From Acidimicrobiales bacterium (lineage in GTDB: Bacteria; Actinomycetota; Acidimicrobiia; Acidimicrobiales; SHLQ01), in assembly GCA_020629635.1 (NCBI GenBank), contig JAHDCX010000001.1, forward strand, positions 387,043-451,042: a stretch of 64,000 bases of DNA. Reading direction: 5' to 3'. The position numbers and the translations under genes were made by a program. The notes beneath the pieces were generated by a model that had not been told where the DNA came from, searched no databases, and saw only the letters and a list, made by a program, of their open reading frames with translations. Below are positions 29,134 through 45,916 of the stretch, in pieces. The number at the start of each line of letters is the position of its first letter. Position 1 is the stretch's first letter.

Positions 29134-30564
29134 GTGACACTTCCTCAGCGTCTGTCGGCACTCCTGATCGTTGGCGTGGTCGGCATCGCTGCCGTGCTGT
29201 TTCTCGCCGGGCGGAGTGGTCCTGGTTCGTCGACCGCACTCGCGCTCGACTCGGGGCGGACAGCTGAGGTCGACGCGTTCGCCGCCGCGTATCCGGTGTC
29301 AGTGCAAGCGTCGGGGGTGACTCGGGAGTTCAATCTCGTCGCCGCGCCGTCGAGACTTGAAGTCGCTGATGGGCTTGACGTCGAGGTGTGGTCTTACAAC
29401 GGGACGGTCCCGGGCCCGGAGCTTCGGGTTGAGCTCGGTGACACCGTGGTCGTCGCGCTCGACAATCAGCTCCCGCAGGCAACATCGATCCATTGGCACG
29501 GCGTGCGCGTCCCCAACGCCATGGACGGTGTCCCCGGAGTCAACCAGGACCCGATCGCCCCCGGGGAATCGTTCCGCTACGAGTTCACCCCCAAAGACGC
29601 CGGAACGTTCTGGTTCCACTCGCACAACAGGGGGTCCGAACAGATCGAGCGAGGCCTCTACGGCAGCATCGTCGTGGTCGACCCGAACGAACCGGTCTAT
29701 GACCACGACCTGGTGTGGATGATCGACGACTGGCTTCTCGACGGCGACGGATCGTTGAACGAGAACTTCAACGCCATGCACGACATCACCCACAACGGCC
29801 GTTGGGGCAACCTCGTCACCGTCAACGGAACCGTCGCCCCCGACGTAGCAATCCACTCAGGTGATCGAGTTCGAGTCCGGATGGTGAACGCGGCCAATGC
29901 CCGTGTCGTGGCGCCGGTGTTCGACGGTGTCACACCGGTTGGCATCGCGGTGGACGGGATGCTCGCTCGCGAACCGTTCGATGGTCAGGGTTTCGAGCTC
30001 GCTCCCGGGAATCGGCTCGACGTCGAGTTCGTCATGCCCGATGGCCCGGTGTCGGTGGCGGAGAACTTTAACGGCGAGGGCTACCAGATCGCCACACTCA
30101 CCCCGGACGAAACAGGAGCTTCGGCGGACCCGTCCGCCGGTGTCGACGCTCCCTTCAACCCGGCCCTGCCGGAATCGGCGATCTTCGCCGGGCTGGGCAT
30201 CGACCACGAATACTCACTCGACTTCACCTCTCCGATGATGATGGGGGCTGACTGGGGCTTCAACGGCCAGACGTTCGACAACACCGACACGCTCACCGTC
30301 GACGAGGGCGGCGTGTACACCTTCCGTCTCCGCAACGACTCCCAGGCGTTGCACCCGATCCACTTCCACGGACAGTTCTTCATGGTCACCGGCATCGACG
30401 GTCAGCTCGTCGACGAAGGACACCTTCGAGACACTGTTCTCGTTTACCCGGGGCAGGCCGTCGACATCGCCTTACGAGCAACCGACGCCGGTCTGTGGGC
30501 GGTGCATTGTCACATCCAAGAACACGCCGAGGCTGGCATGATGACGCTCCTCGAGGTCACCTGA
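29134..30564 (+). CDS. Multicopper oxidase (periplasmic/exported)
   Basis: A 476-residue oxidase with an N-terminal hydrophobic signal/anchor (LLIVGVVGIAAVLFLAG). Copper ligands are complete: HWHG (120-122), HSH (162-164), HPIHFHGQFF, and HCHIQEHAEAGMM near the C-terminus, giving the type 1 and trinuclear centres. Such enzymes oxidise Cu(I) to less toxic Cu(II) outside the membrane. The gene starts directly at a MerR-type promoter and its stop overlaps the next ORF. Confidence 0.93.
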   Translation: MTLPQRLSALLIVGVVGIAAVLFLAGRSGPGSSTALALDSGRTAEVDAFAAAYPVSVQASGVTREFNLVAAPSRLEVADGLDVEVWSYNGTVPGPELRVELGDTVVVALDNQLPQATSIHWHGVRVPNAMDGVPGVNQDPIAPGESFRYEFTPKDAGTFWFHSHNRGSEQIERGLYGSIVVVDPNEPVYDHDLVWMIDDWLLDGDGSLNENFNAMHDITHNGRWGNLVTVNGTVAPDVAIHSGDRVRVRMVNAANARVVAPVFDGVTPVGIAVDGMLAREPFDGQGFELAPGNRLDVEFVMPDGPVSVAENFNGEGYQIATLTPDETGASADPSAGVDAPFNPALPESAIFAGLGIDHEYSLDFTSPMMMGADWGFNGQTFDNTDTLTVDEGGVYTFRLRNDSQALHPIHFHGQFFMVTGIDGQLVDEGHLRDTVLVYPGQAVDIALRATDAGLWAVHCHIQEHAEAGMMTLLEVT

Positions 30565-33302: not shown

Positions 33303-34163
33303 CTACGAGTCCGGCGCCGAGTCTGACTGTGAGGTTCGAAGGTGTAGGGCTCGCTGGACTGCGGCCACTGCGACGAGTGTGACCGCGAGGACGAGGACCG
33401 ATGTCGGTCCGACAGCCCTCACCCAATCGACGACAGTCGATCGGATCTCTTCGCCCTGCTGGACGAGAGGATCCGACGAAAAGTCGCCTGCGTAGACGCG
33501 CAACTCCCACCGGCCGTACCAAACGGCATACGCGCCGGCGACGATCATGAGAAGGCCGCCCACACGTGAGGAATACCTCGCAAACGAGCGCAAGCCAGTG
33601 CTGATCGATCGCTGAGCGAAACTCGCCGCTACCGTCAATATCGCAACGATTGACGCCATCCCGAGCGCGTAGGCGACGTACGAAGCGATGCGTTCAGCGA
33701 TTGACCCACCGACGCCCGCGCCGGTAATCGCAAGAAACGGTCCGATGGTGCACGAGATCGAAGCGACCGCAAACGTGATGCCGTAGCTAAATACGCCGAG
33801 GAGGCCAGTTCGGCCGCTCGCGATCGATGTCTCGGGCAACGGCACCCTTAGTGTGCGACCCGCCAGAAGCCAGAGGCCCCCGACTACGAGACCCCCGCCG
33901 ATCAGGATCGTGACCCATGGAAGGTGCTCGGCAAGATTCGAGGCAACTTGATCCAGTACGAGCCCGACGGCGGTGAAGACCAGTGCGAATGCTGCGGCCA
34001 TCGTGATCGAGACTCGCGCAGCACCGAGGATTCTCGCCGCCCAGGATGCTGAGGTGTCTCCGGCAACGAAGGCGCCGATGTAGGTCGGGAGGAGTGCGAA
34101 TCCGCAGGGGTTGAAGGCTGCGATCATTCCGGCGGTGAATGCGAGTGCGATCGCAGGAGACAT
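33303..34163 (-). CDS. CcdA/DsbD-like thiol-disulfide membrane protein
   Basis: A 286-residue membrane protein with six to seven helices. The two redox cysteines sit in helices at AAFNPCGFALLPTYIGAF and VASISCTIGPFLAITGAG, the CcdA pattern. It moves reducing power from cytoplasmic thioredoxin to the outside. The ATG at 34163 overlaps the upstream cytochrome stop (TGATG). Likely clients are the cytochrome c in the same operon and the candidate selenocysteine thioredoxin at 39043. Confidence 0.9.
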   Translation of the reverse strand: MSPAIALAFTAGMIAAFNPCGFALLPTYIGAFVAGDTSASWAARILGAARVSITMAAAFALVFTAVGLVLDQVASNLAEHLPWVTILIGGGLVVGGLWLLAGRTLRVPLPETSIASGRTGLLGVFSYGITFAVASISCTIGPFLAITGAGVGGSIAERIASYVAYALGMASIVAILTVAASFAQRSISTGLRSFARYSSRVGGLLMIVAGAYAVWYGRWELRVYAGDFSSDPLVQQGEEIRSTVVDWVRAVGPTSVLVLAVTLVAVAAVQRALHLRTSQSDSAPDS

Positions 34164-34546
34164 CAGCGTTCGAACCCAAGCTGTTGTTGTTGGGTTCGGA
34201 TGTAGTTGATGACGAGTTCGATTTGTTGGTCGGTGATGTCTTCGACGATGGGCATGTTGCCGTACGCCCAGTGGTGTTGCGCAACGCCGTTGCGGATGGC
34301 GTTGCGGTAGGTGTCGTCGTTGTGGTGGTTCGGTTCGTAGACGATGGAGAGCTGCGACGGCCCTTTCGCTGTGCCCCGAAGGTCCTCGCCGTGGCAGGAC
34401 GCACATCGAAGTGCGTACACGGTGGCGCCGTCGGCGCTGGCCGGGATCGGCTCGGGAGGTGCTGTCGCCTCGTCACCGCTTCCGCACGCAGCGAGAGTTG
34501 CGGCAAGGCCGAGTGTGGCGAGGAGGGTGGTGAGGCGTCGTTTCAT
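34163..34546 (-). CDS. Cytochrome c lipoprotein
   Basis: A 127-residue exported cytochrome c. The signal peptide ends in LAAC, a lipobox. The haem site is CASCHGEDLRG and the axial Met is probably in YGNMPIVEDITDQQIELVI. It overlaps the CopC-CopD start/stop and the CcdA-like start, forming one operon. It may take electrons from or give them to copper oxidation. Confidence 0.92.
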   Translation of the reverse strand: MKRRLTTLLATLGLAATLAACGSGDEATAPPEPIPASADGATVYALRCASCHGEDLRGTAKGPSQLSIVYEPNHHNDDTYRNAIRNGVAQHHWAYGNMPIVEDITDQQIELVINYIRTQQQQLGFER

Positions 34547-36168
34547 GTGGCGGAGGCGGCGATAAGGAATGCGGTGACGATTGCGACGGACAGGAGGGCT
34601 GCTGCTTCGAGTGTGACGATTGTTCGGAACCGGTCGATGGTGGGTTGGTGGTTGGGGTTGCGGTCGAGGGCGGGCACGACGATGCGATGGTTGTACGCGC
34701 CGCCCGCCGCAGCAATGGCGACGAGTCCGACTTTCAGAGCGAGCAGGCGGCCCCAGGGGGTGGACCAGATGTCTGAGATGGAGTCGAGGATGATCGCGGA
34801 GAGGCCGACGCCGGCAAGTCCGGCAGCGACGAGTGCGATCGTCGCGATGACCGAGAATCGCATTGCCAGTTGGAGCGCTTGCGTGGGGCGACCGCTGCTG
34901 CTGCGGCGGTGGATCGTGAACGCGAGCATGGCGACCCCGCCGGCCCAGATGGACGCAGTCGTGACATGAATCGCGTTCGCGATTGCGTGAAGGACAAGCG
35001 GTCCTTCCGCGGCCGTGTGACCATCGAAGATGAAGGAGACTGCGACGAGACCGACGCCGGCAAGTGAGCCGAGTGCCAGGCGATGGTCCCACACGGCGTC
35101 GTCTGCGTAGACGAAGGGTTCGTCGGGTGCCCGGTCGCGTGGTGGAGGAGCGTGGTTGCCGCCCCCGACAGTCGCAAGCTGGCGTGCGGCCACGATGGGA
35201 TCGCCGCTCGCCGAGGCCGCCGCAGTGTGCATGGCGGTCTTGGTTGCGCTCAGGGCGCTTCCGATGATGCGGAGACCCACCGCAAGTCCCGCGGAAGACC
35301 AGAGTGCGTCTCGGAGGTCACTAGGTGATGCGAGCCCAGACCATCCGCTGGCGAGAATGGCCGTCATCGACGCAGCTTCCGCAAGCGCTGCGGCGAGAAC
35401 GATCACGCTCCCGCGACGGACCCAGTAGAGCACGGCGCGCACGTCGGTAGCATCGCCTCGAAGACCGAACGCGGCGAACGAGGCGGCGCCGATTACCAAG
35501 ACCGCACCGAGGATGTTCAGGACCCGGGCAGCTGACGCAACTGTGGCCGCAGCGACCGGACCGACGTCGGTGGGATCGAGGAAGGATTCGAGATCGACGG
35601 GTGCGGTTGCACTCGCTGCTGTTGTCGTCTCTTCCGCTCCGACCGAATCGGATGCCTCACCCGCTGCGGCTGCTGACGGTTCGTTTGTGTTGGCGTCATC
35701 GTCGACGCCGGCTTCTGCGGCTTCCGGCGTCGCTCGCTCTGGTTGCACGACACCAGTCTCCGGCTCCGAGTCATCCGGCTGCTCGGGCGCAGGTGGAGCG
35801 TCGACGGTAAAGCTGAAGCTTCCGTCGATTGGGTGGGCGTCGGGAGCGGCGACCATCCACCGAACCCCAACCACCCCTCCGACGAGCGGTTCGTCGAAGC
35901 TGAGCGTCCATGTGAGGTTGTCAGAACTCGTCACCTTGTTGGGCTCGCGAAGCGTTCCGGCCGGATCGAGAATCACGAAACCCTCGCCAGCTGGTGTCGC
36001 TTCACCGGAGAACCTCAGCACGATCTCGCTGACCGGAGCATCGATGACGTCTCCATCGGCCGGCGTCGAGGACTCGAAACCGGTGTGTGCGCCGGCCGGC
36101 CTCGCACTCAGTGCGATCGCGAGTGTTGCAATCAGAAGGGCGGAAAGGCTCAGTCTCGTGGTTCGCAT
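34543..36168 (-). CDS. copCD: CopC-CopD fusion copper protein
   Basis: A protein of about 541 residues. The signal peptide ends ARPAGA, and the mature N-terminus HTGFESSTPADG carries the CopC N-terminal His ligand, with DAHPIDGSFSFTV later. A Ser/Ala/Glu-rich linker (120-205) leads to a CopD membrane domain of about eight helices, including ILGAVLVIGAASFAAFGL and HVTTASIWAGGVAML. Such fusions import or bind copper. The ATG at 36168, 8 bases after TTGGAG, is preferred to GTG 36177. A BlaI/CopY-type operator sits at 36185. Confidence 0.93.
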   Translation of the reverse strand: MRTTRLSLSALLIATLAIALSARPAGAHTGFESSTPADGDVIDAPVSEIVLRFSGEATPAGEGFVILDPAGTLREPNKVTSSDNLTWTLSFDEPLVGGVVGVRWMVAAPDAHPIDGSFSFTVDAPPAPEQPDDSEPETGVVQPERATPEAAEAGVDDDANTNEPSAAAAGEASDSVGAEETTTAASATAPVDLESFLDPTDVGPVAAATVASAARVLNILGAVLVIGAASFAAFGLRGDATDVRAVLYWVRRGSVIVLAAALAEAASMTAILASGWSGLASPSDLRDALWSSAGLAVGLRIIGSALSATKTAMHTAAASASGDPIVAARQLATVGGGNHAPPPRDRAPDEPFVYADDAVWDHRLALGSLAGVGLVAVSFIFDGHTAAEGPLVLHAIANAIHVTTASIWAGGVAMLAFTIHRRSSSGRPTQALQLAMRFSVIATIALVAAGLAGVGLSAIILDSISDIWSTPWGRLLALKVGLVAIAAAGGAYNHRIVVPALDRNPNHQPTIDRFRTIVTLEAAALLSVAIVTAFLIAASAT

Positions 36169-36184
36169 GTGCACCACTCCAATC

Positions 36185-36285: not shown

Positions 36286-37737
36286 TCAGGACGATGCGAG
36301 CTCCGAGGCGACCTCGTAGAGCATGGCCATGCCGTATTCGGCATGCAGCTGAATGTGGCAGTGGAGCAGCCACGTGCCCTCGTCGAATGGAGCGACGACG
36401 ATTTCGATCGTCTCGAACGCAGTCATCAGCACGGTGTCGCGGTAGTGGCCTTCGGTAACGCGTTCGTCGTTGCGGCTGACGAGTTGGAAGAACTGGCCGT
36501 GGAGATGGATCGGATGCATCTGGCCGCTCTCGTTGACGATGCGAATCTTCTGCAGCTCGCCACGTGTCGCCGTGAGCGTCTCAGCGTCCGGCCAGACCCT
36601 GCCGTTGAGCTTCCAGAGGAACTCGCCGAACTCCTCGGTTTCGAGCATCCGGTCCTGTTCTTCGCGGCTCGCTTCGGCGAACTCGCTGAAGAATGAGATG
36701 GTCACATTGTGGTCGGCTGGGTCGTCGGCTGCGCTCGACCAGTCCGGGACCTCGCCCACCGGCGCGGTGAAGCCGGGTGTTCCGACGGGGTCTCCGGTGA
36801 CGGAGATGCGCGCGAGTTCCAGCGGGTCGCTCCGGCCAAGGAGGTCGCCGACTATGAACTCGCCTTCGGCATCGGAGGGGATCGTGATGTCGACGTCCAT
36901 GCGGTTCCCGGGGGCGAGCGTGATGTCGGTCGGCGGGAAGTTCTCGGCGACCGGTAGGCCGTCCATGGCGATCACGAGCGGGTCGAGTGCGCCGAAGTTG
37001 GGCTTGATGGGGCGGCCGTTTGCGGTGTTGACGATGCGGATGCGGATTCGTTCGCCCGGTGCGGCCGCGAGGCGCGTCTGCGTCGACCCGTTGATGGTGA
37101 AGAGTCCTCCCCAGCGCCCGGAGTGGTGGATGTCGTTCAGGGAGTCGAAGTCGGGATCGAGCATGCCGGAGTCGTCGACGCGCCAGTCGTCGACGAGCCA
37201 GACGGCGTCGATCGGGTAGTCGGGCTCGGTCGGGTCTTCGACGACGATCGCGCCGTAGAGGCCACGCGCCAACTGTTCGTGGCCGCGCCGGTGTGAGTGG
37301 TACCAGTAGGTGCCGGCGTCGGGCGGCGTGAACTCGTAGACGAAGGTCTCGCCGGGGGCGACCGGTGGCTGGGTGAGGCCGGGCACCCCGTCCATGGCGT
37401 GCGGCACCCGTATGCCGTGCCAGTGGATCGAGGTCGGCTCGGGGAGGTTGTTCTTGAGCGTCACGCGGATCGTGTCGCCGTGGGTGATTCGGATCTCGGG
37501 GCCCGGGGTGGTCCCGTTGTACGTCCATAGGTCGGTCGTGGTCCCCTCGTCGAGGGAGCCGGTCGTCGGAGCTGCCACGAGTCGGACCTCGTGCACCATC
37601 CCCGTTGCAGCGACTGGTTCGATGTAGCCAGGTGCGGCCAACGTCGTGTCGCGTAGCTGCGTAAGGGCGACGACGGCGATCAACGTCGAAACCAGAACGA
37701 GGCAGACAGCGAGTGTGGACTTCGGTTTCTTCAGCAT
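36286..37737 (-). CDS. Multicopper oxidase (second)
   Basis: A 483-residue exported oxidase with an N-terminal membrane signal (LAVCLVLVSTLIAVVAL). Copper ligands HWHGIRVPHAMDG, YWYHSHRRGH, HPIHLHGQFF and HCHIQLHAEYGMAML are complete. It is similar in layout to the oxidase at 29134, but the sequences have diverged throughout, so this is not a recent duplication. It starts 46 bases after the M56 peptidase gene in the same direction and may be part of the BlaI-controlled operon. Confidence 0.93.
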   Translation of the reverse strand: MLKKPKSTLAVCLVLVSTLIAVVALTQLRDTTLAAPGYIEPVAATGMVHEVRLVAAPTTGSLDEGTTTDLWTYNGTTPGPEIRITHGDTIRVTLKNNLPEPTSIHWHGIRVPHAMDGVPGLTQPPVAPGETFVYEFTPPDAGTYWYHSHRRGHEQLARGLYGAIVVEDPTEPDYPIDAVWLVDDWRVDDSGMLDPDFDSLNDIHHSGRWGGLFTINGSTQTRLAAAPGERIRIRIVNTANGRPIKPNFGALDPLVIAMDGLPVAENFPPTDITLAPGNRMDVDITIPSDAEGEFIVGDLLGRSDPLELARISVTGDPVGTPGFTAPVGEVPDWSSAADDPADHNVTISFFSEFAEASREEQDRMLETEEFGEFLWKLNGRVWPDAETLTATRGELQKIRIVNESGQMHPIHLHGQFFQLVSRNDERVTEGHYRDTVLMTAFETIEIVVAPFDEGTWLLHCHIQLHAEYGMAMLYEVASELASS

Positions 37738-37783: not shown

Positions 37784-38665
37784 TCATGAAGCGCCGTTGC
37801 ATAAGTGATCGATCAGCACGCCGAAGTGATGAAGCTGCACTCCCACGGCGGTCCCGGCCGCTACGAATACTCCGACCGCAAGCGACGAGACACGCCGACC
37901 GGCCAAGCGTTCTCGGTCGGGGAACAACAACGCCTCGACCCGCCTCGGTACCGACCCACCGCCCAGGCCAGGAACCCCCAGCAGGGGTGAGCCGAGTGCC
38001 GCAGTGCCGATGGCGCGAGCCACGATGCCCCGATCGTTGACGTGCGTAGCAGCGGCCTCATCGGCGGCCCGCTCCGTTGAATGGCGAAGCTGATCGGCAA
38101 TCGCTCGTAACGACGGCAGGATCGCCACGCACAGCTCGGCGAGCAGGACGTGGCGATGGTGGCCGAAACGGAGATGGGCCCGTTCGTGGGCGAAGACCGC
38201 CCGCCGTTCGGCCGGAGTCAACGCAGAGAGGAGGCCGGTCGAGACGACGACACAGCCCGCCTTGGTAGGCACGGCGTGAGCGATCGGAGACGGATGGTCG
38301 ACGACGGCGATGCGGGCGTCGGCATCGACCGACCGGATTGCGAGCCGCCGAGCCCGCAGCACGCGGCCGACGCGCCATCCGATGATCGCAAGCGCGACGA
38401 CCGCAGCAGCACCGACGACTGGATGGATCTGATGGTGTAAGGGGATGACCCGGCACCACTCGAGTAACGAGGTCGAACGTGCTGGGCCCAGGACGAAACC
38501 GGTTGCGGTCGCGAGCACAACAAGCAGAAGGCCTGTGGCGGAGATCAGCATGGCGGCGGAGAACACCGGCAGCGCGAGGCGAGGCCGCAAGCGCCAATCG
38601 ATCCAGCCCATCGTGGAGACCAACGCAACCGCCACGAGCGTCGGAAGTACAAACTCCGCCGTCAC
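37784..38665 (-). CDS. M56-family membrane metallopeptidase (BlaR1-like)
   Basis: A 293-residue protein with membrane helices at the N-terminus and about residues 85-105. The zinc motif is HERAH (in RRAVFAHERAHLRFGHHRH), with a downstream glutamate in ERAADEAAA. M56 peptidases activate gene expression by cleaving BlaI-type repressors when a signal is sensed. Its ATG overlaps the BlaI stop. It lacks the extracellular penicillin-binding domain of BlaR1, so the signal is not a beta-lactam; copper is inferred from context. Confidence 0.9.
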   Translation of the reverse strand: MTAEFVLPTLVAVALVSTMGWIDWRLRPRLALPVFSAAMLISATGLLLVVLATATGFVLGPARSTSLLEWCRVIPLHHQIHPVVGAAAVVALAIIGWRVGRVLRARRLAIRSVDADARIAVVDHPSPIAHAVPTKAGCVVVSTGLLSALTPAERRAVFAHERAHLRFGHHRHVLLAELCVAILPSLRAIADQLRHSTERAADEAAATHVNDRGIVARAIGTAALGSPLLGVPGLGGGSVPRRVEALLFPDRERLAGRRVSSLAVGVFVAAGTAVGVQLHHFGVLIDHLCNGAS

Positions 38666-39021
38666 TGGGCGGCCTCGTCGAGGAGGCGCCGCAGCTCATC
38701 CGCCTCGGTGTTAGTCAACGTTTCGACGAACGAGCTCAACACTGCGTGGCGATCGCCGGCCGCAATGAGTTGATCATGCATCCGGTGGGCGCGATGCTTC
38801 GCTTCGGCCTCGGAGGGCCAATAGCCGAAGGCCCGTCCTCGCCGCTCCCGCTCGACCGAACCCTTCTTGTGGAGCCGGTTCAGCACGGTCATGACCGTGG
38901 TATAGGCCAGATCGGGAGCGACCGAATCATGCACCTCGCCGGGAGTCGACGGTTCGCCGACCGCCCACAGGTACTCGAGCACCGCCGCTTCGAGTTGTCC
39001 AGTTGATCGTCGTTTGGTCAT
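38662..39021 (-). CDS. BlaI/MecI/CopY-family repressor
   Basis: A 119-residue winged-helix repressor. It has the family pattern LEAAVLEYLWAVGEPSTPGE and YTTVMTVLNRLHKKGSVERE, and the helical dimer region SSFVETLTNTEADELRRLLD. It overlaps the M56 gene by ATGA and lies 21 bases from the thioredoxin-like gene. Matching TACTAC/GTAGTA operators are found at 39553 and 36185. Confidence 0.93.
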   Translation of the reverse strand: MTKRRSTGQLEAAVLEYLWAVGEPSTPGEVHDSVAPDLAYTTVMTVLNRLHKKGSVERERRGRAFGYWPSEAEAKHRAHRMHDQLIAAGDRHAVLSSFVETLTNTEADELRRLLDEAAQ

Positions 39022-39042: not shown

Positions 39043-39522
39043 TCAGGAGGTGAGGTCGTCGAGGACTTCGGTGAGGCGGTCTATGCCCAGCGCGCCGACG
39101 TGATTGGTTGTCGTGCCGTCGTCGTCGATGAACACGAACGACGGCTGCGTGGTGATTTGGTAATTGGCCCACAGTGACCCGTCCTCGTCGACGGCGTGCT
39201 CGAACGCGCCAACATCGAGCGTGTCGATGAAGTCGTTGATCGCGGGGAGGTCATCCCGGCCGGCCACACCGACAAACGTGACCGTGTCGCCGTATTGCTC
39301 GTGCACCTCTGCGACCGCAGGGGCTTCTGCTCGACACGTCGGTCACCACGGCGCCCAGAACCACAGAACCGCGTCGGTGCCTTCGAGCGCGTTGAAGTCG
39401 ATCTGACCACCCGACGCGGTCTGTCCGATTAGCCCGACATCGTCGTTGGTTGTCGTGGAGGAGCAAGCCGTCGAGAGCGCCGCCAGGATCGCCAACACTA
39501 GGGTGAATCGGAGTGCTCGCAC
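39043..39522 (-). CDS. Thioredoxin-like lipoprotein, candidate selenoprotein (in-frame TGA)
   Basis: A TlpA/ResA-like exported thioredoxin, 159 codons, interrupted by one TGA at 39345-39343. Both sides are in the same frame and both match the fold: AVLWFWAPW before, PTCRAEAPAVAEVHEQYG after, giving W-U-P-T-C, so the TGA stands exactly at the first cysteine of the CxxC active site (codon 60). A cis-Pro (TTQPSFVFID) and the C-terminal helix follow normally. A GTG at 39522 gives a lipoprotein signal (LALSTAC-type, Cys20). A GGTC-loop hairpin downstream could be a SECIS. A plain stop mutation is the alternative, but it would have to hit this one codon. Confidence 0.82.
39305..39324 (-). promoter_or_regulatory. 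Possible bacterial SECIS hairpin in the thioredoxin-like gene
   Basis: Starting 18 bases after the TGA on the minus strand: stem GCC-C-CTGC, loop GGTC, then GCAG-A-GGT (one C-A mismatch, one G-T wobble). The loop begins with G and lies 26 bases after the TGA, within the known spacing of bacterial SECIS elements. Confidence 0.55.
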
Positions 39523-39552: not shown

Positions 39553-39572
39553 TACTACGTCAGGTCGTAGTA
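39553..39572. promoter_or_regulatory. BlaI/CopY-type operator of the thioredoxin-BlaI-M56 operon
   Basis: Inverted repeat TACTACG-TCAGGT-CGTAGTA, 31 bases upstream of the thioredoxin-like start. It shares half sites with 36185. It probably gives autoregulation of the BlaI-like repressor. Confidence 0.8.
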
Positions 39573-39664
39573 AGGGGCTACTCAATGGCCTCCGCAGCGT
39601 CGGAATTCCCTGAACGGCGTCGGCATGCGAAGTTGTCGCGCGCCCGATGGTTCAGCCTTGACTG

Positions 39665-39686
39665 TAGTACAGTAGATGCTGTACTA
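39665..39686. promoter_or_regulatory. Operator of the CmtR-like gene
   Basis: Perfect inverted repeat TAGTACAG-TAGATG-CTGTACTA ending 8 bases before the ATG of the ArsR-family gene. It is a typical place for autorepression. Confidence 0.75.
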
Positions 39687-39694
39687 ATTTGGTC

Positions 39695-40015
39695 ATGGAA
39701 GACGTTCGTGTCGAGCCGCTGCATCGTTTTGGGCGGGCGTTGGCTGATCCGGCGCGGTGCCGGATCTTGCTGTGTTTGTTGCACGAGCCGCATTATCCAA
39801 CTGAGCTTGCTGAGCACCTCGGTTTGACCAAGGCGAACATGTCGAACCACCTCGCCTGTCTGCGGGGCTGCGGGCTCGTGACTGCGGTGCAGGAAGGCCG
39901 GCGACAGCGCTATGAGCTGGCCGACGCACGGCTCGCACATGCGTTGGACGACCTGGCAGGCTTGGCTGCGCAGATCGGTATGGACGTTGGCGCAGTCGAG
40001 GGGGTCGCGTCATGA
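39695..40015 (+). CDS. cmtR: ArsR-family metal sensor (CmtR-like)
   Basis: A 106-residue winged-helix regulator. GRALADPARCRILLCLL, then LTKANMSNHLACLRGCGLV closely follows mycobacterial CmtR, whose recognition-helix cysteines (here CLRGC) bind Cd(II) or Pb(II). The third C-terminal cysteine of CmtR is not seen; the protein ends GVAS. It overlaps the cation transporter start by ATGA, so that damaged gene was its target. Confidence 0.9.
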   Translation: MEDVRVEPLHRFGRALADPARCRILLCLLHEPHYPTELAEHLGLTKANMSNHLACLRGCGLVTAVQEGRRQRYELADARLAHALDDLAGLAAQIGMDVGAVEGVAS

Positions 40016-40460
40016 GCGCCTCTCACGATCACCACGATCACGCCCATGGTGGGGTGTTGAGCGGCCGCCTCGGGTTCGCTGCTGCGGTCAATGTCGGGTT
40101 TGCCGTGGTTCAGGTCGTGGTGGGTTTGTACACCGGCGCGGTGGTGGTGCTGGCCGACGCAGCACATCAGGTGGTCGATGCCGTCGGTCTGCTCACCGCG
40201 CTGGTGGCGACGGGCCTGGCTCGCCGCGGGGCGACTCGGGTCATGTCGTTTGGGTGGGGCAAAGCTGATGCGCTTGGGGCCTAAAGCTCCGGGTTGTTGC
40301 TCCTTGGTTCGGTCATCTGGATTGCCTACGAAGCGATCGAACGCCTCAGAGATCCGGTCGACGTTTCGGGTGGCGCGGTGATTGCGATCGGTCTCGCTGG
40401 TATCGCGGTGAACGGCGGGAGCGTGCTCCTGTTTGGTGCCGGGGGTCATTTGGGACTGCC
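40012..40460 (+). pseudogene. Broken cation diffusion facilitator
   Basis: A CDF transporter start: histidine-rich HDHHDHAHGG, then helices with VVVLADAAHQVVDAVGL (the HxxxD-type zinc site in DAAHQVVDA) and FGWGKADALGA. A TAA at 40282-40284 interrupts it; the same frame goes on with LLLLGSVIWIAYEAIERLRD and IAVNGGSVLLFG, which are normal CDF sequence. Near 40460 homology ends in a repeated CTGCCGCT-type sequence shared with other element ends. It is therefore both nonsense-mutated and cut off; unlike the two TGA genes, TAA cannot encode selenocysteine. Confidence 0.85.
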
Positions 40461-40740
40461 GCTCGGTGCCGCTGGCTGCCGCCTGTTGCCGCTCCCTGCC
40501 GCTGGTCGCCATGAACGGAGCGGGGTGTCGGAGGGGTGTGTGTTGTTCGACGTCCTTTTCGGGTTTCGGCGTTTGCCCTGGTGAGGCTGGGTGTCGACGG
40601 TGGAGGGGTGTCGTTTGCTAATGGTTCTGCTAATGCCGGTCATTGGTCAGGGCTCGCCGCAGGTCTGTGACAAGGTGGTTTCGCTGCTGTAGCGCGATGC
40701 AACACTGACCCGATCGGGCGGTCGCTGCGCCGTTGGCGGC
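40461..40740. other. Element end with GCTAATGG repeats; no gene
   Basis: This stretch holds repeated GCCGCT units (40461-40510), an inverted copy of the tRNA-end-like motif GGTGTCGGAGGGGTGT near 40524, and TTGCTAATGG followed by TGCTAATG near 40615. The same combination occurs at 60398-60562. It looks like the remains of an integration site. Confidence 0.6.
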
Positions 40741-42807: not shown

Positions 42808-44275
42808 CTACGTGGCCGGGTCGGTCGGCGACAGCGGGGGCTTCGCGGCTGGAGGGTGGGTGGCGTGTTTGCTGATCTCGATCCACGCCGATCCAGCGAT
42901 GGCAGCGAGGGCTGAGAGCCCGACAAGGTGCGGGTCTATGGCGACGATGTGGAGTGCGTCTCGAAGGGGGCTCCACACTAGGAGGGCGGCGACGAGGGCG
43001 ATGACCGCTGCTGCCCATGTGAGCATGACGCGGTTGGTGGTGAGCCCCAGGCGTGTGAGGGGTGTGTGGTCGCTGCGCAGGTGGAAGGCGAGCATGACGT
43101 GGCCGAGCTGCCAGGTGATGAAGGCCACGGTGGGGGCCTGGTCTGGTGAGCCCAGGGCGCGGGTTGCGAGGTAGGCGCTGGTGACTGCGGCGAAGAGGCT
43201 GAGGCCGGCGGTGAGGATGCCCCTGATGAGGGTGGGGTCCAGGAATCGTCGCCGGGTGTCGATCGGATCTCGATCCATGAGGTCTGCTTCGGGGGCTTCG
43301 GCAACGAAGGCGGCTGACGCTGCCAGGTCCATGAACAGTTCCATGACGATGATCTGAATTGGGGTGAAGGGTTCGGTGAGCCCGGCGAGGGCAATGGCGA
43401 GCACGGTTGTGAGGAGCGCGACTTTCGCGGCGAGGTAGAAGCGCACGGCCTTGCGGAGGTTGGCGTGCAGGGCCCGTCCCTCTTCGATGCCGGATTCGAG
43501 GGTGGCGAAGTTGTCGTCGGCGAGCACGAGGTCGGCTGCGTCGCGGGCGATGTCGGTGCCTTGGATGCCCATCGACACGCCGACGTCTGCGGCGGCCAGG
43601 GCGGGGGCGTCGTTGATGCCGTCCCCGGTGACGGCGATGACCTCACCGCCGCCTTGCAGGGCACGAACCAGCTGGAGCTTTTGGGCCGGTGCGGCTCGGG
43701 CCACCACGCCGCCGTGCGCGAGACGATCGCGTAGGGCTGTGTCATCGAGTGCGTCGAGGTCTGTTCCGTTGATCACGGGGCTGGTGTTGATGCCGACCAC
43801 GGTCGCGATGGCTTTGGCGGTGGCGGCATGGTCTCCGGTGACCATGACGATGTCGATGCCAGCCCGCGCACACGCAGCCACCGCGGCGGGTGCTTCGGCG
43901 CGCACGGGATCGGCGAGAGCGATGAGGCCAAGCAGACAGAGATCGCGTTCGGCTTCTTCGGGGCTGGTAGGTATTGCGGACCGGGTAGCGGCGGCGACGG
44001 CGAGGACTCGGGCGCCGGTCGAACCCAGGCTCTCGGCCTCCGCGAGCAGCCGGGCCCGGGTGTCGCTGGTCATGGCCGTCTCGGTGCCGTCGGGGTCGAG
44101 GTAGCGGTCGCTGATCTCGAGTACTGCTTCGACAGCCCCCTTGACCGACACTCGGTACTGGCTGTCGACGTTGTGTACGACACAGGAGCGACGCCGATCT
44201 CGATCGAATGCGAACTCGGCCACCGGTTCGGTCGCTGCCGGTGTTGCCGCTTCGATGGCTCGGTCGATCGGGTCT
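42808..44275 (-). pseudogene. Cation P-type ATPase, C-terminal part only
   Basis: About 490 residues of a P2-type (calcium-like) ATPase. DPIDRAIEAA, the nucleotide domain with IVMVTGDHAATAKAIA and [20 protein letters not shown], and the C-terminal helices with MELFMDLAASAAFVAEAPE are present. The N-terminal actuator domain, first helices and DKTGT phosphorylation site are missing. The frame stays open to 44772 but becomes meaningless where the IS110 fragment begins on the other strand, so the gene was cut there. It cannot pump. Confidence 0.85.
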
Positions 44276-44658
44276 TGTGTGGGTTCGGGCCCAGGACCGG
44301 CGCACGAACCCTCGCCGAGATCGGTGACCCAAACCGGTTCGAGACCGGCTCCCGCCTCGCTGCCTACGCCGGACTCGCTCCGACCGACTGGAGATCCGGG
44401 CGATCCATCAACGGAGCGTTCCAACACCGTGGCGGCAACCATCGATTGAAGAACGCCATGTTCATCGCAGCGTTCGTCGCCAGCCAGTTCGACCCGTCCG
44501 CCAAGGCCTACTACCAACGCAAACGAGCCGAGGGGAAACGCCACAACGCCGCGGTCATCTGCGTCGCACGCCGCCGCTGCGACCTCATCCTGGCCATGCT
44601 CAAGAACCAGACCCCCTACGACGCCAGCCGACACCACGACATCCCGATCGCCGCTTGA
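44272..44658 (+). pseudogene. IS110-family transposase, C-terminal fragment
   Basis: About 128 residues of the IS110 C-terminal domain: GFGPRTGARTLAEIGDPNRF, LAAYAGLAPTDWRSG and HRGGNHRLKNAMFIAAF, including the domain's serine region. The N-terminal RuvC-like DEDD part is missing. Its left edge is exactly where the cation ATPase loses homology. Confidence 0.88.
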
Positions 44659-44669
44659 CAACAAGACAG

Positions 44670-44690
44670 GAACACCCCTCCGACACCACT
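44670..44690 (+). repeat. 21-bp direct repeat, left copy (tRNA-end-like)
   Basis: The 21 bases GAACACCCCTCC-GACACCACT are repeated exactly at 45967-45987, on the other side of the IS481-like element. CCTCCGACACCA resembles the acceptor end of a tRNA or tmRNA. Confidence 0.85.
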
Positions 44691-44710
44691 GTGATGTCTC
44701 AGGACATCGG

Positions 44711-44740
44711 AAACCCTCGAACCCGGGGGTTCGAGGGTTT
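44711..44740 (-). terminator. Transposase terminator hairpin
   Basis: A perfect 14-bp inverted repeat (AAACCCTCGAACCC and its complement) with a 2-base centre, ending at the transposase stop codon. It lies just inside the left IS end. Confidence 0.85.
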
Positions 44741-45916
44741 CTACGTTTTGAAGCGGGGCTGGTAGCCGACATCGGGGTTGAGGGTGAGGTGTCGGATGAG
44801 TTCGCCCGTGGTCTTGTTCACGACTCGGATGTCGAGTTCGTCGATGATGAGCACGACGGGTGTGCCTTTGAGCGGACGGCCGAGGCTGATGTGGTGCATC
44901 CGACCAGCTCGGCGGAGTGACACGGTCCCGGTTTTGTCGATTCGGTCGTGGCGTATCCGATAGTGATTTCCGGCGCCGTGGTTGCCGGGGGCGTCTTTGG
45001 GCAACCGGCGGTAGGCGACCGCTGGTGGGACCTTGCCAACCGCGGTGTGAGCACGCCGATGGTTGTAGATGTCGACGAACTCATCGATCAGGCATTGAAG
45101 ACCGGCGAGTGTTTCCGCGGGTGGCCGGGCAGCGACCCATTTCTTGAGGGTCTGTTGGAACCGTTCGACTTTCCCGGTGGTGGTCGGGTGGTTGGGTCGG
45201 GTGTGTTTGTGGGTGATGCCCAACTCGGCGAGTCGGGTCTCGAGCTGGTTTCGTCCGCCCGGGTAGCCGGCGAACCGAACGGTGTAGACGAGACCGTTGT
45301 CGGTCAGCACCGACGCTGGGAACCCATGTGTTTCGGCGGTTTGGTCGAAGGTCTCACGAACGATGTTCCCGGTGACACGGCGGTGGGCCGAGACGTGGAG
45401 GGCGTATCGGGAGTGGTCATCGAGCCAGGTGATGGTCTCGGTGTCGGTGCCGTCGGCCAGGTAGATGTGGGTGAAGTCCGACTGCCAGGTTTCGTTCGGT
45501 AGTGCGGCTTCGAACCGGACATAGCTCGACTTCGGCCGTTTCTTCGGGGCCGGCTCGACCAGCCCGGCCGCGACGAGCCGCCGCCGGATCGTGGACACCG
45601 ACACGTCGATGCCGTGGTCGGCTTCGAGGTGCCATTGGATCGTGTGAGGGCCGGCATCCAGCCCATCTGTGGTGAGCTGTTCGCGCAGGTTCACAATCAG
45701 ATCGCTCACGACATCCGCAACCCGGTTCGGTGACGAGCGCGGCCGCCTCGAACGAGGTTCGAACGCCGCCTCGCCCTCTGCCCGGTAGCGGGCCATCAGT
45801 TTCGAGACCCAACTCCGAGACACCCCGAATCGTCTCGCAGCTTCAGACTGCGAGATCCCCTCCACCGTGACCGCCGTGATGATCGCTCGAGCCTTCGACA
45901 TCACCCACGATGCCAA
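44741..45916 (-). CDS. IS481-family transposase
   Basis: A 391-residue DDE transposase. The N-terminal HTH is ISQSEAARRFGVSRSWVSKL, a second HTH region contains VSTIRRRLVAAGLV, and the catalytic core has Asp in ETWQSDFTHIY, Asp in VLTDNGLVY and Glu in TGKVERFQQTLKKW. The C-terminal beta domain (HISLGRPLKGTPVVLIID) is complete. The first codons (MASWVMSKARAII) offer a second ATG at 45901. No frameshift is present, unlike IS3-type elements. Confidence 0.95.
   Translation of the reverse strand: MASWVMSKARAIITAVTVEGISQSEAARRFGVSRSWVSKLMARYRAEGEAAFEPRSRRPRSSPNRVADVVSDLIVNLREQLTTDGLDAGPHTIQWHLEADHGIDVSVSTIRRRLVAAGLVEPAPKKRPKSSYVRFEAALPNETWQSDFTHIYLADGTDTETITWLDDHSRYALHVSAHRRVTGNIVRETFDQTAETHGFPASVLTDNGLVYTVRFAGYPGGRNQLETRLAELGITHKHTRPNHPTTTGKVERFQQTLKKWVAARPPAETLAGLQCLIDEFVDIYNHRRAHTAVGKVPPAVAYRRLPKDAPGNHGAGNHYRIRHDRIDKTGTVSLRRAGRMHHISLGRPLKGTPVVLIIDELDIRVVNKTTGELIRHLTLNPDVGYQPRFKT

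Follow-up and report, generated by a model that had tools for sequence, protein, structure and literature searches.

Is a TGA codon that falls on the first cysteine of a thioredoxin active site a premature stop, or is it read as an amino acid? The question is raised by a DsbE/DsbF-like (TlpA-type) thioredoxin gene on the minus strand (39043..39522) of the 64,000-nucleotide stretch of DNA analysed here (the window). The gene starts with GTG at 39522, runs for 159 codons to a terminal TGA (39045–39043), and carries an in-frame TGA at 39345–39343, at the first Cys of the CxxC motif. The frame reads ...AVLWFWAPW-TGA-PTCRAEAPAVAEV... and holds zero other stops among its 159 residues, in agreement with the earlier note on this DNA, which had described that TGA as the sole defect. 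We regard it as almost certain, on comparative sequence evidence, that this UGA would be decoded as selenocysteine (Sec) in a DsbE/DsbF-like protein, a confidence that covers the decoding and leaves the copper role of the protein to be graded separately.

With the TGA taken as a residue (U60), the protein reads MRALRFTLVLAILAALSTACSS...AVLWFWAPW-U-PTCRAEAP...ITTQPSFVFIDD...DDLTS, and UPTC replaces CPTC in what is, by sequence, a thioredoxin fold with a CxxC-type motif. The cis-Pro stretch (TQPSFVF) and the whole C-terminal half are retained 3′ of the TGA. When the TGA is read as Cys, the Pfam models AhpC-TSA, Redoxin and Thioredoxin score 52, 48, and 42 bits, respectively, all above cut-off. 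The closest solved structures, matched over residues 33–159 of the protein, are those of Mycobacterium tuberculosis DsbF (Rv1677, PDB 3IOS; 4e-32) and MPT53/DsbE (Rv2878c, PDB 1LU4; 6e-27), and these sequence matches settle the fold.

Selenocysteine machinery in the genome

The source genome comprises 4.45 Mb in 37 contigs and is 96.5% complete. The earlier note had proposed a search for selA, selB, selD and tRNA-Sec, and all four are present. The tRNA-Sec (65 bits, above the Rfam threshold; anticodon UCA by ARAGORN) shares contig C28 with SelA (NCBIfam TIGR00474, 395 bits), and SelB, which carries a C-terminal winged-helix domain, begins at the end of the same contig (TIGR00475, 301 bits against a cut-off of 242); both proteins score above their curated cut-offs. 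SelD, on contig C13 (363 bits), itself contains an in-frame TGA, within HGAG-U-GCK. Among 48 tRNA places, one of which, at a contig edge, is too short to call, tRNA-Sec has the only UCA anticodon called.

Five TGA-containing thioredoxins are encoded in this genome: the window copy and those at C32:8313, C30:18456, C15:271278, and C15:332266. The last of these (locus L187, LLWFFSPH-U-PTCRREGP) was missed by the first homologue list and caught with the SECIS model described below.

TGA at the active site of relatives

The class was searched (395 genomes) with stops read through, and the best single-TGA matches were aligned to the window protein. Codon 60 is either Cys or TGA in the relatives, which is what the alignment of homologues suggested in the earlier note was meant to distinguish. 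Position 60 is TGA and position 63 Cys in 79 of the alignments of best class matches (genes counted twice are included; the distinct UxxC sequences number 73 to 74), both positions are TGA in three, which represent two distinct genes, and ten have Cys at both. In-frame stops in these alignments are confined to one or both active-site positions. Because 79 alignments carry TGA at this codon, its presence is more than chance. A further 21 loci, 20 from the wider phylum plus the fifth copy of the source genome, all have TGA at position 60. The genes with TGA at both active-site cysteines (WFWAPW-U-PH-U-R) are L130 (G273:C36, also listed as L058) and L127 (G314:C8).

The part of the gene 3′ of the TGA is under purifying selection, with dN/dS mostly between 0.04 and 0.36 among pairs with usable dS. 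The tail after the TGA is 94–104 residues long, with one exception, the same length as in Cys homologues. Among the 64 genomes that encode a TGA thioredoxin, 61 also encode SelA, versus 198 of 331 others (Fisher p = 2e-9; genome lists compiled by hand). The three genomes without SelA are metagenome-assembled and 69–79% complete, and one of them has tRNA-Sec; in the wider phylum, tRNA-Sec scores above threshold in 17 of 20 genomes.

In the phylogenetic tree, the Sec/Cys state changes six times, and at least three of these changes are forced by well-supported branches. Cys homologues were retrieved with the peptide WFWAPWCP as search pattern, a choice biased to Cys, and the resulting set is therefore uninformative on the rate of Sec. 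At one locus (L120, G043:C154), a Cys and a Sec thioredoxin lie side by side in tandem, possibly a duplication with Sec/Cys exchange.

A SECIS hairpin downstream of the TGA

In bacterial SECIS elements, the loop lies approximately 16–37 nt from the UGA, is short, and has a G among its first two positions; the SECIS of E. coli fdhF has a GGUC-type loop. The hairpin at 39305..39324 (minus strand), GCC.CTGC-GGTC-GCAG.GGT, has this general layout, with a stem of 3+4 base pairs and a GGTC tetraloop (39316–39313) that starts 26 nt past the TGA. With the T of the TGA numbered 0, the stem pairs positions 21–23 with 38–40 and 25–28 with 33–36, around loop positions 29–32. The earlier note had located the element correctly and named it a possible SECIS, and it had suggested scoring it against a bacterial model; the covariation of the stem across relatives is decisive in its favour.

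In an alignment of 45 distinct relatives, 95.9% of cells are paired, a percentage partly inflated because a row had to carry a GGTC loop and form three or more of the four core pairs to be selected. Compensatory double changes occur in 55 cells versus 17 in shuffled alignments, and the covariation score of 0.538 falls to 0.106 or less once the 3′ strand is slid by one to three columns. The outer pair 23/38, which stands outside the selection rule, shows compensatory changes among C-G, G-C, and U-A, and RNAalifold recovers the core stem unguided. Applied to the same columns, the selection rule is satisfied by 46 of 75 TGA genes versus 5 of 94 Cys homologues. A second type of hairpin, whose loop begins approximately 16 nt beyond the codon, occurs in another 17 TGA genes, many of them with WFWAPH-U-PTC; by this simple rule, 12 of the 75 TGA genes match neither type.

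A covariance model of the first type gives the window gene 57.5 bits, the next best hit within the window being 8.5 bits. When the genome was scanned, four of the five Sec thioredoxins scored 45–57 bits and the fifth 18.8; the window gene and three other copies of this genome were part of the model, and the fifth copy is thus the only independent find. At gathering thresholds, Rfam has no matches within the window. Folding energy relative to synonymous-codon shuffles fails to tell Sec genes from Cys genes (mean z of −0.41 versus −0.36), and the single-sequence folding energy of the window hairpin is no better than that of its shuffles. This test is insensitive because the sequence is GC-rich and the pool being shuffled includes SECIS-shaped codons, so covariation was used instead.

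The second architecture (loci L146, L154, L158, L160, L164, L171, and others) belongs mostly to the WFWAPH-U-PTC clade and is often followed by another strong hairpin (TCGAGCAGTTTGCTCGA). In the genes with two TGA codons, one hairpin lies 26 nt past the first UGA and 17 nt past the second. Because this single hairpin follows both codons, one SECIS may serve two Sec residues.

Other readings of the TGA

A cysteine thioredoxin gene that is decaying, or that was wrongly sequenced, would account for the premature stop in the frame and would suit a window that is partly decayed, with a truncated cation diffusion facilitator gene at 40012–40284 and a P-type ATPase by a transposase. However, dozens of genomes have TGA at the same codon, and purifying selection past the TGA, the covarying SECIS, and the association with SelA all stand against decay; we consider this reading refuted by the conservation of the TGA across genera and give it practically no probability. 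Some bacteria decode UGA with other tRNAs, and the codon might by analogy be read as Cys by a tRNA-Cys with a UCA anticodon, or as Trp under a changed code. Yet tRNA-Cys of this genome has the anticodon GCA and tRNA-Trp CCA, no UCA tRNA other than tRNA-Sec was found, and a conserved SECIS would be superfluous under either scheme; moreover, the code is not globally changed, since TGA is the terminator in 45 of 76 TGA genes of the thioredoxin family. Decoding as another amino acid is accordingly very improbable. Finally, the gene might yield mainly a 59-residue product, with the hairpin serving as a selenium-sensing attenuator of the downstream blaI–copper genes. This would fit a gene that is first in its cluster and ends just ahead of blaI, and Sec decoding is in general inefficient, but purifying selection acts on the full-length protein in relatives and the same genes do not follow the other Sec copies examined. 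We give regulatory readthrough a small chance, although selenium-dependent polarity could operate alongside Sec insertion.

Insertion of Sec is thus the preferred reading: tRNA-Sec and SelB would decode the in-frame UGA under the direction of the hairpin that begins its loop 26 nt further on, a mechanism that the comparison of sequences supports. The Sec-thioredoxin claim of the earlier note gains support from the sel genes, the TGA/Cys homologues, and the covarying hairpin together.

Relation to known thioredoxins and selenoproteins

DsbF and DsbE of M. tuberculosis are exported single-domain thioredoxins, and the protein studied here likewise has a single domain and is probably exported. The mycobacterial proteins have Cys at the first active-site position, whereas the window protein has Sec and is encoded in a copper cluster with BlaI. 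In vitro, M. tuberculosis DsbE and DsbF behave as general oxidants, and their proposed membrane partner is a DsbD-type protein or Rv2877c (PMC3853704).

Selenoproteins with UxxC or UxxU in the AhpC-TSA, Redoxin, and thioredoxin groups have been listed before (PMC13188914, PMC9312934, PMC2398784). These lists include a Prx-like thiol:disulfide oxidoreductase (PF00578, UxxC/UxxU) and a Redoxin family selenoprotein (PF08534, UxxC) (PMC13188914), as well as the Trx-like 1 and Prx-like 1 selenoproteins of an ocean survey (PMC2398784). Compared by description only, they share domain families and the UxxC and UxxU variants with the proteins studied here. The ResA-like WAxxUGC protein of model NF041054 also places Sec in a ResA/TlpA-like thioredoxin, but its motif is UGC as opposed to UxxC, and the window protein scores 31 bits against that model's cut-off of 300. 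A scan of the window protein with NCBIfam gave no selenoprotein model above cut-off, and a full-text search of one literature collection found no papers on selenoproteins of Acidimicrobiia. The window gene is a member of a new, apparently unmodelled branch of the known UxxC Sec thioredoxin/redoxin kind and does not represent a new principle; the branch is widely distributed, and the operon is unusual.

Probable export and lipid anchoring

The N-terminus of the window protein, judged by eye, is hydrophobic and ends in STAC, which we read as a putative signal peptide (39463..39522, minus strand) ending S-T-A-C20. The lipobox is non-canonical and weak because of the Ser at −3. The putative signal peptide and the Cys after STA make the surface location suggested in the earlier note plausible and Cys20 a probable site of lipid anchoring. 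On this view the product is a thioredoxin-fold oxidoreductase of the DsbE/DsbF (TlpA-like) family of actinobacteria that would be exported and act outside the membrane, probably lipid-anchored, with Sec in place of the nucleophilic first Cys of CxxC (UPTC). Either direction, reduction or oxidation of its substrates, would be compatible with the sequence.

A copper cluster probably controlled by BlaI

The thioredoxin gene is the first of a cluster on the minus strand. Thirty nucleotides upstream of its GTG lies a perfect palindrome, TACTACG-N6-CGTAGTA (39553..39572), a probable BlaI-type operator, which is the sole mismatch-free site in the window and the sole site in the genome with up to one mismatch; a search for this operator near the other Sec copies found nothing. 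Directly 3′ of the thioredoxin gene is a gene for a BlaI/MecI-type repressor (38662..39021; Penicillinase_R, 85.5 bits), which overlaps by 4 nt the gene for a membrane zinc protease, M48/BlaR1-M56-like (37784..38665; Peptidase_M48, 43.7 bits; M56 below cut-off). Then follow, on the same strand, a multicopper oxidase (36286..37737; Cu-oxidase_3, Cu-oxidase_2, and Cu-oxidase), a CopC–CopD copper resistance fusion (34543..36177; CopC 54.6 and CopD 66.6 bits), a c-type cytochrome lipoprotein (34163..35092; Cytochrom_C, 45.3 bits), whose ORF as listed exceeds the gene, the real start being internal at MKRRLTT, and a CcdA-like membrane protein (33303..34406; DsbD_TM, 22.0 bits, below cut-off), whose true start is likewise internal, at MSPAIALAF. 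The arrangement put forward in the earlier note, a first gene with BlaI and a CcdA-like protein nearby, holds, with blaI at 39021–38662 and the CcdA-like gene approximately 5 kb downstream.

BlaI bound at the palindrome would probably repress the operon. The neighbouring genes further suggest that the CcdA-like protein probably trades electrons with the Sec thioredoxin, which in turn may set the redox state of thiols in copper-handling or other envelope proteins. A homologue of this CcdA-like protein lies within approximately 5 kb in 77 of 80 Actinomycetota loci with Cys homologues, matching the CcdA/DsbD-type partner proposed for M. tuberculosis DsbE and DsbF (PMC3853704); none was found in the flanks around Sec-bearing relatives.

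A copper role for the Sec thioredoxin, which we infer from the neighbouring genes, competes with a simpler reading that bears on this part of the explanation alone, namely that the selenoprotein is a general envelope thiol reductase or oxidase which lies in a metal-resistance island by chance. Four of the five Sec copies lie outside the cluster, and the two whose neighbourhoods were examined, on contigs C32 and C30, have no copper clusters nearby, and the mycobacterial homologues are general oxidants in vitro (PMC3853704). Against chance stand the position of the gene at the head of the cluster, preceded by a palindrome with no second copy in the genome, and the surroundings of the closest homologue elsewhere (61%, genome G257), whose neighbours are a CopA-type ATPase, a DUF305 protein, and CopC. 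We judge the absence of a specific copper role to have slightly less than an even chance. Since the C32 and C30 copies are without copper clusters, copper defence is plausible for the window copy but does not characterise the family; copper genes accompany this locus and its closest homologue and are absent near the other copies examined in the genome.

Implications

The evidence shows that this group of selenoproteins is widespread, both in Acidimicrobiia and in other parts of the phylum. Since annotation ends at the TGA, genes of this kind can easily be recorded as truncated or as pseudogenes, and a SECIS covariance model retrieves them from a genome. A more far-reaching proposal, that Acidimicrobiia hold an unrecognised multi-copy family of envelope Sec thioredoxins with two SECIS types, and that the window copy is a selenium-dependent member of a BlaI-controlled copper defence operon, is tentative and, taken as a whole, rather unlikely. 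If it were true, copper tolerance would depend on the supply of selenium. The locus makes it possible to test whether copper resistance at the cell surface is linked to that supply. Two Sec residues served by a single hairpin would most naturally be sought in the UxxU copies.

Other metal-resistance genes in the window

The window contains further metal-related genes. Between 24728 and 33069 are two more heavy-metal P-type ATPases and a second multicopper oxidase (29134–30564, plus strand), and the island therefore holds several copper systems. A P-type ATPase remnant adjoins an IS-type transposase ORF (42808–45916, the transposase at 44741–45916), which suggests that the metal-resistance island is mobile and partly decayed. 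Beside an ArsR regulator, a cation diffusion facilitator gene (40012–40584) is interrupted by TAA after 90 codons (40012–40284), with similar sequence continuing beyond, and is a decayed copy. Ahead of the divergent ArsR gene lies a second palindrome, TAGTACAG-N6-CTGTACTA (39661–39690), which is likely that gene's operator.
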